Below, piece after piece: positions 25,699 to 54,136 of a stretch of DNA of 64,000 bases. Each line of letters opens with the position of its first letter. The stretch's first letter is position 1. Origin of the DNA: Promicromonospora thailandica (lineage in GTDB: Bacteria > Actinomycetota > Actinomycetes > Actinomycetales > Cellulomonadaceae); contig NZ_JAMTCS010000002.1 in NCBI RefSeq assembly GCF_024171955.1, positions 173,300 to 237,299 on the forward strand. Direction: 5' to 3'. A model generated the notes under the pieces. The model did no database searches, was not told the origin of the DNA, and worked only from the letters and a program-made list of their open reading frames with translations. The position numbers and the translations under genes are program-made.

Positions 25699-25752
25699 CG
25701 AACGTGTCAGACCCTCAGGTCACCGGGGTGGCCTGAGGGTCTGACACGTTCG
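25699..25752. repeat. 21-bp perfect inverted repeat between the DEAD-box gene and msrB
   Basis: Arms at 25699-25719 (begins CGAACGTGTCAGACC) and 25732-25752, with a 12-base spacer that can pair further. It lies 15 bases after the helicase stop. It could act as the helicase terminator, but the length and perfection are more like a REP-type element. Confidence 0.6.
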
Positions 25753-28857: not shown

Positions 28858-28930
28858 GGGCCTCTAGCTCAACTGGCAGAGCAGCGGACTTTTAATCCGC
28901 GGGTTCCGGGTTCGATCCCCGGGGGGCCCA
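28858..28930 (+). tRNA. tRNA-Lys (TTT)
   Basis: A 73-base cloverleaf: acceptor GGGCCTC/GGGGCCC with one G-U pair, anticodon loop CTTTTAA (TTT), T-arm CCGGG TTCGATC CCCGG, discriminator A. CCA is not encoded. Confidence 0.95.
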
Positions 28931-29111
28931 CCCTTTCGGCCCGCTCAGGCTGCGCGAACATGCCATCGAGCGGGAAGTAGCTCCGGGCTCCTACGCCATC
29001 TGTGAGCAGCCGCGCACGGTCTCGTTGGAGCGGGTCACCCGCCACGATGCCACCCGCCATGACACCACAGCCGTCGCGGCCATCGTCCGCACCCTGATCG
29101 ACCCCACGTAG
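28931..29111 (+). pseudogene. 5'-truncated gene remnant abutting tRNA-Lys
   Basis: An open frame runs from the base after the tRNA to a TAG at 29109-29111, with about 85% GC at third positions as in real genes here, and reads ...YAICEQPRTVSLERV... No ATG or GTG start exists in frame, and it merges into the tRNA. It is probably the tail of a gene whose front was lost when an element integrated at, or excised from, the tRNA 3' end. No family recognised. Confidence 0.5.
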
Positions 29112-29124
29112 CCCGCGCATGCCG

Positions 29125-29192
29125 CGAGGTCGGTCCCTTGTCTCGAGATCGGCACAGTGATGTACCGATCTCGAGACAAGGGACCGACCTCG
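29125..29192. repeat. Palindromic repeat element, intergenic copy
   Basis: 28-bp perfect inverted arms (29125-29152 and 29165-29192; core CTTGTCTCGAGATCGG) around a 12-base loop. Without its outermost pair (29126-29191) it matches 53177-53242 at about 55 of 66 positions. It lies between the tRNA-Lys remnant and the end of the DHA2 transporter, where it could also act as a terminator. Confidence 0.8.
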
Positions 29193-29211
29193 TGTGGGTT
29201 CGCCGGCAGGA

Positions 29212-30828
29212 TCAGGAAGCCGTCGGCTCCAGGTCCTTGAGCTGGTCGATGCCCGAGCGGTGACCCAGCGGGACCTCCTTGATGAGGATCACGCAGATCA
29301 GCGCCACCACGGCGAGCGGCACGGCGGCCAGGAAGATCTCCGCGATGCCGTTGGCGTAGGCCTTCTCGACGACCTGGACCAGCAGCGGCGGGAGCGTCGC
29401 GAGGTCAGGGAGCGTGTCGCCGCCCGACTGGAAGGCCGACGGGTCGATGCCCTGCTTCGCGAGCTGCGGGGCGATGTCGGTGATGCCGTCCTCCAGGCCC
29501 ACCTTCACGCGGTGCCCCAGGACGGCACCGAGCGCCGAGACGCCGATGGCGCCGCCGAGCGAACGGAAGAACGTCACGGTCGACGTGCCCGAGCCCGAGT
29601 CCTTGATGTGCAGCGTGTTCTGCGTGGCCAGCACCATGTTCTGCATGAGCAGACCGACCCCGGCGCCGAGCACGAACAGGTAGATCGAGACCAGCACGAA
29701 CGACGTCTGGTAGTCCAGCGTCGACAGCAGCAGCAGGCCGCCCGTCAGGAGCACGCCGCCCGTCACCATGTACGGCTTGTACCGGCCGGTGCGGGAGATG
29801 AGCTGACCGCCCACCGTGGACGACAGGAACAGGCCCACGACCATCGGGATCGTGTACAGGCCGGACTCAGTCGGCGTCTTGCCGCGCGAGAGCTGCATGT
29901 ACTGGCTCAGGAACACCGAGGAGCCGAACATCGCGACGCCCACGGCCACCGAGCCGATGACGGCGAGCACCAGCGTGCGGTTCTTGAACAGGTACATCGG
30001 GATGAGCGGGTTGGCCACGCGCAGCTCCACGAGCACCGCGATCGCGAGGACCACCAGGGAGCCGCCGAGCATGGCCGCCGTCTGCCAGGAGAGCCAGTCG
30101 AACCTGCTGCCCGCGAACGTGATCCAGAGCAGCAGCGTCGCGACGCCCAGGGAGATCAGGGTGGCGCCGATGACGTCGATCCGGGCCGAGCCGCGGGGCC
30201 GCTTCGGCAGCTTGAGCGTCATCTGCAGCACGATGATCGAGGCGACCGCGAACGGCAGGCCCACGAAGAAGTTCCAGCGCCAGCTGATGGCGTCCGTGAG
30301 GAACCCGCCCAGGATCGGTCCGCCGACCATGCCGACGCCCATGATCGAGCCCATGAGGCCCATGTACCGGCCGCGCTGGCGCGGGCTGATGATGTCGGCG
30401 ATGAGCACGGCCGACAGCGACTGGAGGCCGCCCGCGCCGATGCCCTGGAAGGCGCGGAAGGTGATGAGCTGGCCGGCGTCCTGGGCGAAGCCCGCGGCGG
30501 CCGCGGACAGCACCGAGATGACCAGCGCGATCTGGATGAGCGTCTTGCGGTTCGTGAGGTCGGCGAGCTTGCCCCAGATCGGGGTGGAGATCGTCGAGGT
30601 CAGCAGGGTCGCCGTCACCACCCAGGTGAACGCGGACTGGCCGCCGCCGAGGTCGGTGATGATCTTCGGCAGCGACGACGACACGACGGACATCGCGAGC
30701 ACCGACACGAACATGCCGAGGAGGATCCCGGACAGGGCCCGGAGGACCTCGTTGTGCGTCATGGCGGGCGGCTCGCCCTGGAGGTGGCCGGGTTCGGCCG
30801 CGACGGTCTCTGTGGTGGGGCTGGTCAT
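29212..30828 (-). CDS. DHA2-family (14-helix) MFS multidrug efflux transporter
   Basis: A 538-residue proton-coupled exporter. About 14 hydrophobic helices are visible; motif A is GKLADLTNRK in the first loop; motif C-type glycines are in GVGMVGGPILGG; and GRYMGLMGSIMG matches EmrB/QacA relatives. Substrates are typically cationic drugs or dyes, not predictable here. Its ATG overlaps the TGA of the upstream MarR gene by four bases, so the pump and its probable repressor are co-translated. The palindromic repeat follows its stop. Confidence 0.93.
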   Translation of the reverse strand: MTSPTTETVAAEPGHLQGEPPAMTHNEVLRALSGILLGMFVSVLAMSVVSSSLPKIITDLGGGQSAFTWVVTATLLTSTISTPIWGKLADLTNRKTLIQIALVISVLSAAAAGFAQDAGQLITFRAFQGIGAGGLQSLSAVLIADIISPRQRGRYMGLMGSIMGVGMVGGPILGGFLTDAISWRWNFFVGLPFAVASIIVLQMTLKLPKRPRGSARIDVIGATLISLGVATLLLWITFAGSRFDWLSWQTAAMLGGSLVVLAIAVLVELRVANPLIPMYLFKNRTLVLAVIGSVAVGVAMFGSSVFLSQYMQLSRGKTPTESGLYTIPMVVGLFLSSTVGGQLISRTGRYKPYMVTGGVLLTGGLLLLSTLDYQTSFVLVSIYLFVLGAGVGLLMQNMVLATQNTLHIKDSGSGTSTVTFFRSLGGAIGVSALGAVLGHRVKVGLEDGITDIAPQLAKQGIDPSAFQSGGDTLPDLATLPPLLVQVVEKAYANGIAEIFLAAVPLAVVALICVILIKEVPLGHRSGIDQLKDLEPTAS

Positions 30829-51324: not shown

Positions 51325-51558
51325 GTGGGTGAACAGAGCGACGTCGTCCACAACCGCATAGCGATGCTGCGCGCCGAGCGCGGCGTCTCACGGCGCGAGC
51401 TGGCCGAGGCACTCGGGGTGCACTACCAGACCGTCGGCTACCTGGAGCGCGGTGAGTACAGCCCGTCGCTGCACCTCGCGCTGCGCATCGCGGAGTACTT
51501 CGACGTGGCGGTCGAGGTGGTGTTCTCGACCACCCCGTTCAAGCGGCTGGGTGCGTGA
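51325..51558 (+). CDS. Small XRE-type helix-turn-helix regulator
   Basis: A 77-residue protein that is little more than an HTH domain: SRRELAEALGVHYQTVGYLE then RGEYSPSLHLALRIAEYFDV, typical of YgzD-like regulators often found with ABC exporters. GTG at 51325 lies 4 bases after the permease stop, so it is the third gene of the operon and probably regulates it. The last 20 bases overlap the end of the convergent helicase gene. Confidence 0.88.
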   Translation: MGEQSDVVHNRIAMLRAERGVSRRELAEALGVHYQTVGYLERGEYSPSLHLALRIAEYFDVAVEVVFSTTPFKRLGA

Positions 51559-54136
51559 CCCCGGGATCGTGCGCGAGCACGGCGTCCAGGAGCCGTACCG
51601 CCGCGTCCTTGTCGAGCGGGGCGTTGTACGAGCCGCACTTGGGCGACTGCACGCACGCCGGGCAGCCGTCCGCGCAGGGGCACGCGGCGATCGCGTCCCG
51701 GGTGGCGCGGAGCCACGTGGCCCCGAGATCGTAGGCGCGCTCGGCGAAGCCCGCGCCGCCGGGGTAGGCGTCGTAGACGAACACGGTCGCCTCCCCGGTG
51801 TCCGGGTGCAGCTCCGTCGACACGCCACCGAGGTCCCAGCGGTCGCAGGTCGCGAGCAGGGGCAGCAGGCCGATCGCCGCGTGCTCGGCGGCATGCAGCG
51901 CGCCCGGTGCCTGCTCGGCGGAGATGTCGGCGGCGCGCAGCACGAACTCGGGCACCGACCACCACACCGCCACTGTGCCGAGCGTGTGCTCGGGCAGCTC
52001 CAGCTGTTCCGTGCCGAGCACCTGCATGTCCGGGATGCGGCGGCGCTGGTAGCTCACCACCTGGGACGTCACCTCGACGGGGCCCAGACCCCAGGTGACC
52101 GGCCCCCACTGCCGCGTCACGAGGTCGTGCCCGGTGTCGTCGACCTCGGCGCGCGGCTCGTCGTCGTCCCAGCCCTCGATGGCGACCGACATGACCGACC
52201 GGGACCACGTCCCGTAGTCGAGCCGGCGTCGCTGCACGACGGCGGTGTGGTCGGCCAGGTCCAGGTGCGTCACCACGTAGGTGGTGCCCTGGTGCACATA
52301 GACCGCGCCGTCGTGCACCTGGCCGTCGGCCGACGCCGCGTCGACAGTGCCCAGCATGCGTCCCGTGCCGTGCTCCACCACGCGCACCGGCGTGCCGCCG
52401 GCGCCGCGCAGGTCGGTCAGACCGGTGGCGGGCTGGTGGTGGGTCCAGTACCAGCCCGAGCTGCGGCGGCGCAGCGCACCCCGGGCGACGAGCACGTCCA
52501 GGATGCCGCGCACGTGCGCCGGGTCGCCGAACGCCGCGAGGTCCTCCGACCGCAGGGGTGCCTCCTGGGCCGCCGCGCAGAGGTGCGGCGCGAGCACGTG
52601 CGGGTTGGCCGGGTCGAACACCGTCGCCTCCAGCGGGGCGTCGAAGACGGCCTCGGGGTGGGTCACCAGGTAGGTGTCGAGCGGGTCCTCGCGCGCGACG
52701 AACGCGACCAGCCCGTCCGCCCCGGCCCGCCCCGCGCGGCCTGCCTGCTGCCACAGCGACATCCGCGTGCCCGGCCAGCCGGCGATGAGCACGGCGTCCA
52801 GCCCGGAGATGTCGACCCCCAGCTCGAGCGCGTTGGTCGTCGCCAGCCCGAGCAGGTCGCCGGTGCGCAGCGCCTGCTCCAGCTCGCGGCGCTCCTCGGG
52901 CAGGTAGCCCCCGCGGTAGGCGGCGATCCGCCCGGCGGCGTCCGGGGCGTGCCGCAGGTGGTCGCGGGCCTGCTGGGCCACCGACTCCGCACCGCGCCGC
53001 GAGCGCGTGAACGCCAGGCTCCGGGCGCCGGACGCGGCGAGGTCGGCGAGGAGGTCGGCCACCTCCGCGGTCGCCGACCGCCGCGGGTGCTCGGGCGGCG
53101 CCTCGGTGGCGACAGCGTCCACCTCGGGATCATCTGCCGGCCCCTGGGACCCCACGGCCCAGGGGTCGGGTTCCGTGAGGTCGGCACGTTGCATCGAGAT
53201 CGGCACATCGCTGGACCGATCTCGGGACAAGGGGCCGACCTCGGCGTCTCCTACGGGGGCCGGGCGCCACGAGGCGATCTCCGGGGGCTGCCAGAGGACC
53301 ACCGTGCGGCGGCCCGAGGGGGACGCGTCCTGGGTGACGGCCGTGACGTCGTCCGGCGCGACGCCGATGAGGCGGGCCGCACCGGCTGCGGGCTCCGCCG
53401 TCGTCGCCGAGGCCACGACGAACGTGGGCGCGCTGCCCCCGTACCGCTCGACGAGGCGCGTGAGCCGGCGCAGCACGTGCGAGACGTGCGCGCCGAAGAC
53501 GCCGCGGTAGGCGTGCCCCTCGTCGATCACGACGTAGCGCAGCCCCTTGAGCAGCCGCGACCAGCGCCGATGGTTCGGCAGGAGCGAGTAGTGCAGGAAG
53601 TCGGGGTTGGTCAGCACGACGTCGGCGTGGTCCCGCACCCAGGTGCGCTGCTCCCGTGAGGTGTCGCCGTCGCACGTCGCGACCCGCACGTCGCGGGTGC
53701 CCGCCGCGTCCAGGAGGCGCTCCAGGGCGCTGAGCTGGTCGGCCGCCAGGGCCTTGGTCGGGCTGAGATAGAGCGTCGTGGGCCGGGCACGCGCCGAGGA
53801 GATGTTGCCCGGGTCGAGCGTGGCCGAGGCAGCGGCGGTCCGGACGTCGGACAGCGCGGGCAGCCAGAACGCCAGCGACTTGCCCGACCCGGTGGACGTG
53901 GCCAGCGCGGTGTGCCGGCCCTGGTGGACGAGGTCGGCGGCGAGCGCCTGGTGCGTCCAGGGCCGCTCGACCCCGAGCTTCCGGTACCCCTGCACCACCG
54001 TCGCGTCGGCCCAGTCCGGCCAGTCGGCGTGCCGGGCGGTCCGCGCCGGGAGCACGCGTGACGCCGTCATCCGCTCGGCGCGCGCGCCGCCGGCGAGCAG
54101 CACGTCGAGCAGGGGGTGGGTGGAGACCTCGGGCAC
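51539..54136 (-). CDS. MrfA/Hrq1-like DEAD/DEAH helicase with DUF1998 zinc domain
   Basis: An 865-residue superfamily 2 DNA helicase: Walker A STGSGKSLAFW, motif II VVIDEGHAYRG, VVASATTAEP, and motifs V/VI ELGVDISGLDAV and QQAGRAGRAG. The C-terminal DUF1998 (MrfA-like) region ends with the four-Cys zinc site CPCADGCPACVQSPKC. Bacillus MrfA repairs mitomycin adducts without UvrA, so DNA repair is the likely role. The GTG at 54136 (MPEVSTHPLLDVLL) is inferred. Residues about 299-320, in the linker between the two RecA domains, are encoded by a palindromic repeat. Neighbourhood with Tad genes resembles Rv3649. Confidence 0.92.
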   Translation of the reverse strand: MPEVSTHPLLDVLLAGGARAERMTASRVLPARTARHADWPDWADATVVQGYRKLGVERPWTHQALAADLVHQGRHTALATSTGSGKSLAFWLPALSDVRTAAASATLDPGNISSARARPTTLYLSPTKALAADQLSALERLLDAAGTRDVRVATCDGDTSREQRTWVRDHADVVLTNPDFLHYSLLPNHRRWSRLLKGLRYVVIDEGHAYRGVFGAHVSHVLRRLTRLVERYGGSAPTFVVASATTAEPAAGAARLIGVAPDDVTAVTQDASPSGRRTVVLWQPPEIASWRPAPVGDAEVGPLSRDRSSDVPISMQRADLTEPDPWAVGSQGPADDPEVDAVATEAPPEHPRRSATAEVADLLADLAASGARSLAFTRSRRGAESVAQQARDHLRHAPDAAGRIAAYRGGYLPEERRELEQALRTGDLLGLATTNALELGVDISGLDAVLIAGWPGTRMSLWQQAGRAGRAGADGLVAFVAREDPLDTYLVTHPEAVFDAPLEATVFDPANPHVLAPHLCAAAQEAPLRSEDLAAFGDPAHVRGILDVLVARGALRRRSSGWYWTHHQPATGLTDLRGAGGTPVRVVEHGTGRMLGTVDAASADGQVHDGAVYVHQGTTYVVTHLDLADHTAVVQRRRLDYGTWSRSVMSVAIEGWDDDEPRAEVDDTGHDLVTRQWGPVTWGLGPVEVTSQVVSYQRRRIPDMQVLGTEQLELPEHTLGTVAVWWSVPEFVLRAADISAEQAPGALHAAEHAAIGLLPLLATCDRWDLGGVSTELHPDTGEATVFVYDAYPGGAGFAERAYDLGATWLRATRDAIAACPCADGCPACVQSPKCGSYNAPLDKDAAVRLLDAVLAHDPGVTHPAA
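53177..53242. repeat. Palindromic repeat element inside the helicase gene
   Basis: Imperfect inverted repeat (53177-53203 and 53216-53242, 12-base loop) matching the intergenic element at 29126-29191 at 55 of 66 bases. It is read in frame as EVGPLSRDRSSDVPIS... in the helicase; the same frame is open in the intergenic copy. Confidence 0.8.

Follow-up and report, generated by a model that had tools for sequence, protein, structure and literature searches.

A family of palindromic repeats built from phased units lies between genes and, in frame, within genes of Promicromonospora

Introduction

Palindromes that are translated in frame are known in Rickettsia and in a number of other bacteria. 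Promicromonospora is a free-living actinobacterial genus of soil bacteria, and the titles and abstract openings returned by our searches of open-access literature describe no such elements in this genus or its family. In this study, we analysed a window of 64,000 nucleotides (contig C2:173300-237299 of the 5.38-Mb genome G000). An earlier note, made from its letters alone, had pointed to a 66-base palindrome read in frame inside a helicase gene, with an intergenic sister copy, and had likened both to Rickettsia palindromic elements (RPEs). The locus raises the question of whether the palindrome belongs to a dispersed family, how such a sequence comes to be read as protein, and what spreads it and keeps it symmetric.

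Results

Two copies in the window

The features of the locus are listed in Table 1. Named relatives that are 87-90% identical to the helicase all come from Promicromonospora. The minus-strand translation of the element, EVGPLSRDRSSDVPIS, starts at residue 296 and lies between the DEAD (59-244) and Helicase_C (358-469) domains, as expected from the earlier placement of about 22 residues in the linker between the RecA domains. The match of the two copies at 55 of 66 positions (83% over 66 bp) was also confirmed. Each copy forms a long hairpin with its near flanks (z values on the two strands, -4.6/-5.7 in the helicase gene and -12.6/-15.1 between genes), and none of 200 shuffles folded as well in either case. 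The description of both as inverted repeats with a 12-base loop holds for the palindromes and fails for the loop of the intergenic copy, whose 32-nt arms are 97% complementary around a loop of 4 nt. The helicase copy is a less perfect palindrome (25 of 33 pairs). A tRNA gene lies at window positions 28858-28930, approximately 0.2 kb upstream of the intergenic copy.

Table 1 Features of the helicase locus and of the intergenic sister copy (window coordinates).
Feature	Position	Strand	Basis
Palindromic element, 66 bp, 22 codons (EVGPLSRDRSSDVPISMQRADL), within the helicase gene	53177..53242	-	Covariance model, 68.9 bits (copy itself in model)
Intergenic sister copy, near-perfect palindrome; 3' end of a minus-strand gene (29212-30828) 20 bp off	29126..29191	.	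Covariance model, 86.1 bits (copy itself in model)
Host gene, MrfA/Hrq1-type helicase (DEAD, Helicase_C, WHD_HRQ1, MZB)	51539..54136	-	Gene call and Pfam
Left outer unit, + strand GAGGTCGGCACGTTGC	53177..53192	+	Unit deduced from copies and arrays
Inner core GAGATCGG-N12-CCGATCTC, both inner units head to head	53196..53223	.	Core pattern count, 85 places at up to 2 mismatches
Right outer unit, coding strand GAGGTCGGCCCCTTGT; arm appearing converted from a subtype-A copy	53227..53242	-	Five-site match to the copy at 29126

Dispersal in the genus and family

Further copies, on which the idea of a mobile element had been made to depend, are abundant. The core pattern occurs at 85 places in G000 and its reversed control at none, which rules out a chance origin of the repeat. 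At up to one mismatch, the core is present in all 13 Promicromonospora genomes (6 to 57 places per genome) and in 12 of 106 relatives outside the genus (1-8 places), some with other palindromes. A covariance model, with at most 26 candidates scored per genome, found matches in 101 of 200 family genomes and 15 of 25 genera, which may include unrelated palindromes. Among these matches, we read 11 loci in three genomes together with two places of a Myceligenerans locus; the loci in G168 and G154 have the identical 66-bp layout with a unit sequence of their own, and the sequence of the G144 locus is more distant. A DNA search at an E value of 0.001 recovered the Promicromonospora sequence in 2 of 46 genera. 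The layout seems to extend beyond the genus, while the Promicromonospora sequence itself does not. An idealised 66-mer had no match at an E value of 0.1 among 72,556 plasmid and 50,697 phage records, and carriage by plasmids or phages was rejected on these grounds. A known RNA family was likewise rejected, as Rfam returned only tRNA for the 10 loci searched.

Unit architecture

The copies are composed of units, TCGGTCNNYTGC, which repeat in arrays running towards the core from either side (pattern matches in G000, 49; reversed control, 0). The short form of 66 bp consists of an outer unit, an inner unit, and then their mirror image. In the long form, one or more extra outer units are added on each side at 30-32 bp, approximately three helical turns. 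Between genes in G000, with distances of 24-45 bp looked at, the spacing is 31 bp in 33 cases, 30 bp in 12, 32 bp in six, and 40 bp in one. Within genes it is exactly 30 bp in 26 of 26 spacings. As these were taken in seven genomes from three host genes, not all are independent. Nine of the 26 were counted as in-gene although the gene caller missed the host there, because these loci are host-gene loci with open frames running through.

Among 55 individually examined copies, outer units are found on neither side in 31, on both sides in 23, and on one side in a single copy, and 54 of 55 are therefore symmetric. This contradicts an origin of the outer units by one-sided tandem duplication alone, although the longer arrays do look duplicated, the spacers of neighbouring modules being about 0.8 identical (16 module pairs). 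The same spacer identity, and the fact that the arrays face each other around the palindrome, led us to reject a CRISPR array. Spacers of different arrays are mostly unrelated, with identities of 0.27-0.47 at most positions; the arrays were located by the unit pattern, and most identity at unit bases, which arises by construction, was not used. As spacers are mostly unshared between arrays, the long form does not resemble a single copied unit. Complementarity between left and right spacers is weak (0.423 vs a null of 0.385, sd 0.023, maximum 0.470). A subtype B, with TCGGCAGTTGGC units and an AGGCCT centre, is present in other Promicromonospora at L075:22490 and L094:20952, with further units approximately 20 bp off as judged by eye.

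Placement relative to genes

The 55 examined copies are distinct and represent 55 of the 85 places in G000. With genes called by a simple codon-usage method, 16 lie between convergent genes, 25 between tandem genes, 8 between divergent genes, and 6 inside genes. The fetched loci are 87% coding, yet 49 of 55 copies are intergenic. For the intergenic copies, 32 of 41 three-prime neighbours end within 50 bp (median 24), compared with 3 of 41 five-prime neighbours; most intergenic copies sit directly behind gene 3' ends.

This bias towards 3' ends and convergent regions is what would be expected if the palindromes were transcription terminators or mRNA 3'-end hairpins, with the in-gene copies accidental, and it fits that reading that one convergent site carries this family in G001 and other palindromes in G000 and G006. 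Around the sister copy (window 28950-29450), however, there were no terminator-like matches (GC stem plus T-run), the hairpins persist within long genes, and termination needs no phased outer units. We consider this explanation very improbable.

Copies within genes

The six host genes in G000 encode the MrfA-type helicase, a RecD-like helicase, an Ada-AlkA fusion, an amine-oxidoreductase-fold protein (HemG-like), an MPAB_Lcp_cat protein, and an ATPase-like protein; the HemG-like label and the ATPase-like label, the latter for a protein without a Pfam match, are our own reading. By name, three of the six are DNA-repair or recombination proteins. All six copies contribute 22 codons in the same frame (frame 0), reading E[VI]G. 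That their coding frame is open holds by construction; in the in-gene frame analysis, a script could assign a coding strand to 22 of 36 copies, and the other 14 are open on both strands. In the 49 intergenic copies, frame 0 has stops on 27 of 98 strands and the other two frames on 11 and 14. Frame 0 is thus the most stop-prone, and a lack of stops does not favour it. Codon scores are negative in the in-gene copies and positive in their flanks.

Five of the six gene positions are also occupied in other species. The insert is found in 6 of 12 genus sequences of the ATPase-like protein, in 9 of 13 MPAB orthologues (plus a 22-residue relic in G008), in 7 of 12 Ada-AlkA orthologues (two of them decayed), and in 7 of 11 HemG-like orthologues. 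The exception is the RecD-like helicase, in which only G000 of seven genomes compared has the insert, in place of approximately 10 linker residues. Across the 13 genomes, the MrfA-type helicase insert is clear in eight, eroded in three (G004, G008, and G012), and absent in two (G002 and G009). In aligned helicases from outside the genus, its residues are absent by eye, which agrees with the suggestion of a lineage-specific insertion. The earlier note had also considered that orthologues might carry the same residues without the DNA repeat; most Promicromonospora orthologues instead have similar residues together with a decayed repeat, and the helicase insertion is therefore an old event within the genus.

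In other genera, G154 and G168 provide two further in-frame copies in the same frame, the latter at a gene end. Both weak matches of the Myceligenerans locus lie in genes, and in one of these genes the core is out of frame 0.

Site turnover

In synteny comparisons of G000, G001, and G006, 12 of 13 comparisons at the eight intergenic sites found no element, and the remaining one, scored as occupied, is ambiguous as it spans a 1.7-kb gap. Four in-gene sites (HemG-like, Ada-AlkA, helicase, and MPAB) were occupied in 10 of 12 genome-pair comparisons. These counts cover sites with synteny and leave aside sister-family cores of the GTGATCGG type (G001 3790686, 3969505, and 4167150; G006 363072, 436416, and 437815). 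The element is not the sole difference between occupied and empty sites, and inspection by eye of the ends of 55 copies showed no direct repeat that would indicate a target-site duplication. The turnover of sites, together with the one species-specific insert, suggests movement.

Covariation of the arms and a shift of the core

In an alignment of 41 copies, 90.4% of cells are paired, and 19 pairs and 113 cells have double changes, compared with 12.2 and 48.3 after shuffling, although these pair counts lean high because the copies are related. None of 500 shuffles reached the observed covariation, and sliding the register destroys the signal. Double changes also occur at orthologous in-gene sites. 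Relative to G000, changes of both arms that are still paired number 44 at the orthologous MPAB sites, 27 at HemG-like, 22 at Ada-AlkA, 9 at helicase, and 7 at ATPase-like sites, against 28, 27, 29, 28, and 25 broken pairs, respectively.

In the clade of G006, G010, and G011 (support 0.904), GAGACC has replaced GAGATC in the core, and the opposite arm carries the corresponding change. The GAGACCGGTC core occurs at 40 places in G006, 22 in G011, and 10 in G010. Each of the ten remaining genomes has it at 0-1 places, compared with 0-2 for the reversed control there. Of the five in-gene sites compared, four show the shift on one arm or both, and the helicase site is the exception.

The helicase copy in the window differs from all seven other clear orthologues at five bases, and at each of these it agrees with the copy at 29126. 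Four of the five fall within eight bases (positions 10-17 of the coding-strand element), and the full set is shared with two more G000 copies. From these matches, the helicase copy looks partly gene-converted from a copy like that at 29126, an exchange that would have altered the protein.

A mutational process alone might account for such changes, with template switching perfecting and extending quasi-palindromes and ectopic gene conversion homogenising them without a dedicated factor. The apparently converted helicase arm is in line with this, and in some copies (L104, L105, and L109; by eye) the palindrome extends past 66 bp into the flanks. Mismatched T-G and C-A pairs are about equally frequent (about 50 and 46 among the listed cells of the pair table, ignoring the direction of transcription), an argument against selection for an RNA hairpin. 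Such a process leaves the 30-32 bp phasing, the symmetry of the outer units, and a new insert such as that in RecD unexplained, and we regard it as improbable.

In a stronger competing view, a chromosomal protein with a role in architecture or regulation would bind DNA at these units; phased half-sites would bind cooperatively, in-gene copies would be retained as functional, and the core shift in one clade would reflect changed specificity. The spacing of 30-32 bp, although 24-45 bp was sought, the symmetric outer units, the unrelated spacers of different arrays, and orthologous in-gene sites that remain palindromic through double changes all agree with this proposal. However, intergenic sites are mostly not kept between species, in-gene sites are missing in many species (as in the ATPase-like and HemG-like genes), and the helicase copy decays. 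We judge it rather unlikely, and it stays a serious explanation because of the unit phasing.

Search for a mobilising gene

No RAYT-type Y1 transposase domain (Y1_Tnp, PF01797) was found at the threshold used in the 13 Promicromonospora genomes, and one was found among all 39 relatives, compared with matches in 6 of 14 control genomes. Reverse transcriptase (RVT_1) likewise gave no match in the 13 genomes at the threshold used. A RAYT or other Y1 transposase and a reverse transcriptase were therefore both rejected as the mover. As for an autonomous parent element, the genes between cores 1.4-2 kb apart, in one stretch of G006 and one of G000, look ordinary by eye.

Other palindrome families

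Long palindromes number 45 in G000:C2:1-417299 and 44 in G001:C1:3780000-4219999, whereas a single mononucleotide-shuffled version of the G000 stretch contained none. They include several other families, for example GTGTCAGACGCTCAGGTC, TTCGAGACCGAGGTTGCTTCGCTTTGAG, GCGARRTAGAAC arrays, and CCCACCCAGCGATCGTGCCCA, and approximately half occupy gaps where genes converge. The window itself carries a member of the GTGTCAGAC...GTCTGACAC family at 25699-25752 (C2:198998-199051). A sister 66-bp palindrome of identical layout with a different motif, GAGATCTGGTGTTCGC, is located at L020:4045 and L105:4829. The sister layout GTGRTCGGCAG..GTCAGGTGATCGG occurs at G006:C3:436416, 437815, and 441995 and at G001:C1:3790686, 3969505, and 4167150; one copy, in a G001 gene (G001:4167133), is in a different frame from the six G000 copies. 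The convergent gap in the G001:C1:4065553 region, mentioned above, holds three families in three species.

Discussion

We propose, as the moderately likely explanation of the dispersal, frame, spacing, symmetry, covariation, clade-specific core shift, and site turnover of these copies, a non-autonomous palindromic family similar to REPs and RPEs that is spreading and being homogenised in Promicromonospora genomes. Copies would settle mostly right behind gene 3' ends, and some would land in variable protein linkers, where a length of 66 bp (22 codons) and steps of 30 bp would preserve the frame. They would then be rewritten through exchange with other copies, probably by gene conversion, and both arms, in genes too, would track the version that is current in their lineage. 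A trans-acting DNA-binding or recombination protein that reads the phased units may drive the spread. A bolder version is only tentatively put forward, and we hold it to be possible rather than probable: a trans-acting system, neither RAYT nor reverse transcriptase, would recognise helically phased TCGGTC half-sites in this actinobacterial family, seed and enlarge symmetric palindromes, and rewrite copies, including those in genes, when its specificity shifts, thereby editing proteins.

Among known systems, the likeness to RPEs suggested in the earlier note is supported as an analogy: the family appears to work like RPEs, which does not make it a member of them. RPEs are described as short palindromes, with several families per genome, lying in frame in unrelated protein genes (PMC10969869, PMC3733652). 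The Promicromonospora palindrome is similarly in frame in six unrelated genes (6 of 55 copies, all in frame) with orthologues that have and lack it, and several palindrome families share a genome. It differs in its actinobacterial host, in its 66-bp core compared with approximately 150 bp as given there for RPEs (PMC10969869, PMC3733652), in its phased outer units, and in the concerted change of both arms in a clade.

REPs are high-copy elements placed at 3' ends and between convergent genes, with some in-gene copies that lean to DNA-repair genes (PMC3733652). The Promicromonospora element is likewise high-copy, lies mainly behind gene 3' ends in convergent or tandem gaps, and has in-gene copies in DNA-repair genes (MrfA-type helicase, RecD-like helicase, and Ada-AlkA). 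Unlike REPs and REPINs, it is accompanied by no RAYT-type Y1 gene in any of the 13 genomes, has no GTAG or CGTC end tag (the 41-copy consensus is GAGN...NCTC), and is larger and made of phased units. PARCEL sequences are tandem amphipathic repeats of 25 residues, many of them in proteins targeted to membranes (PMC2996958). They share with the present family palindromic DNA that codes for protein repeats (PMC2996958), whereas the Promicromonospora elements are linker inserts in unrelated proteins. The element resembles MITEs in being small, palindromic, non-autonomous, and dispersed, and differs from them in that no target-site duplication was observed by eye and no parent transposon was found next to the copies looked at.

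New in this family are units that are both phased and symmetric, a step of exactly 30 bp within genes, and in-gene copies that are rewritten with the others in one clade. Thirteen genomes of a free-living actinobacterial genus allow in-gene and intergenic copies to be compared site by site. The family separates three questions that are usually mixed, namely spread without a RAYT, symmetry kept in coding sequence, and protein change. The 30-bp step within genes, compared with 30-32 bp outside, provides a natural test between the mechanism and selection on the reading frame.
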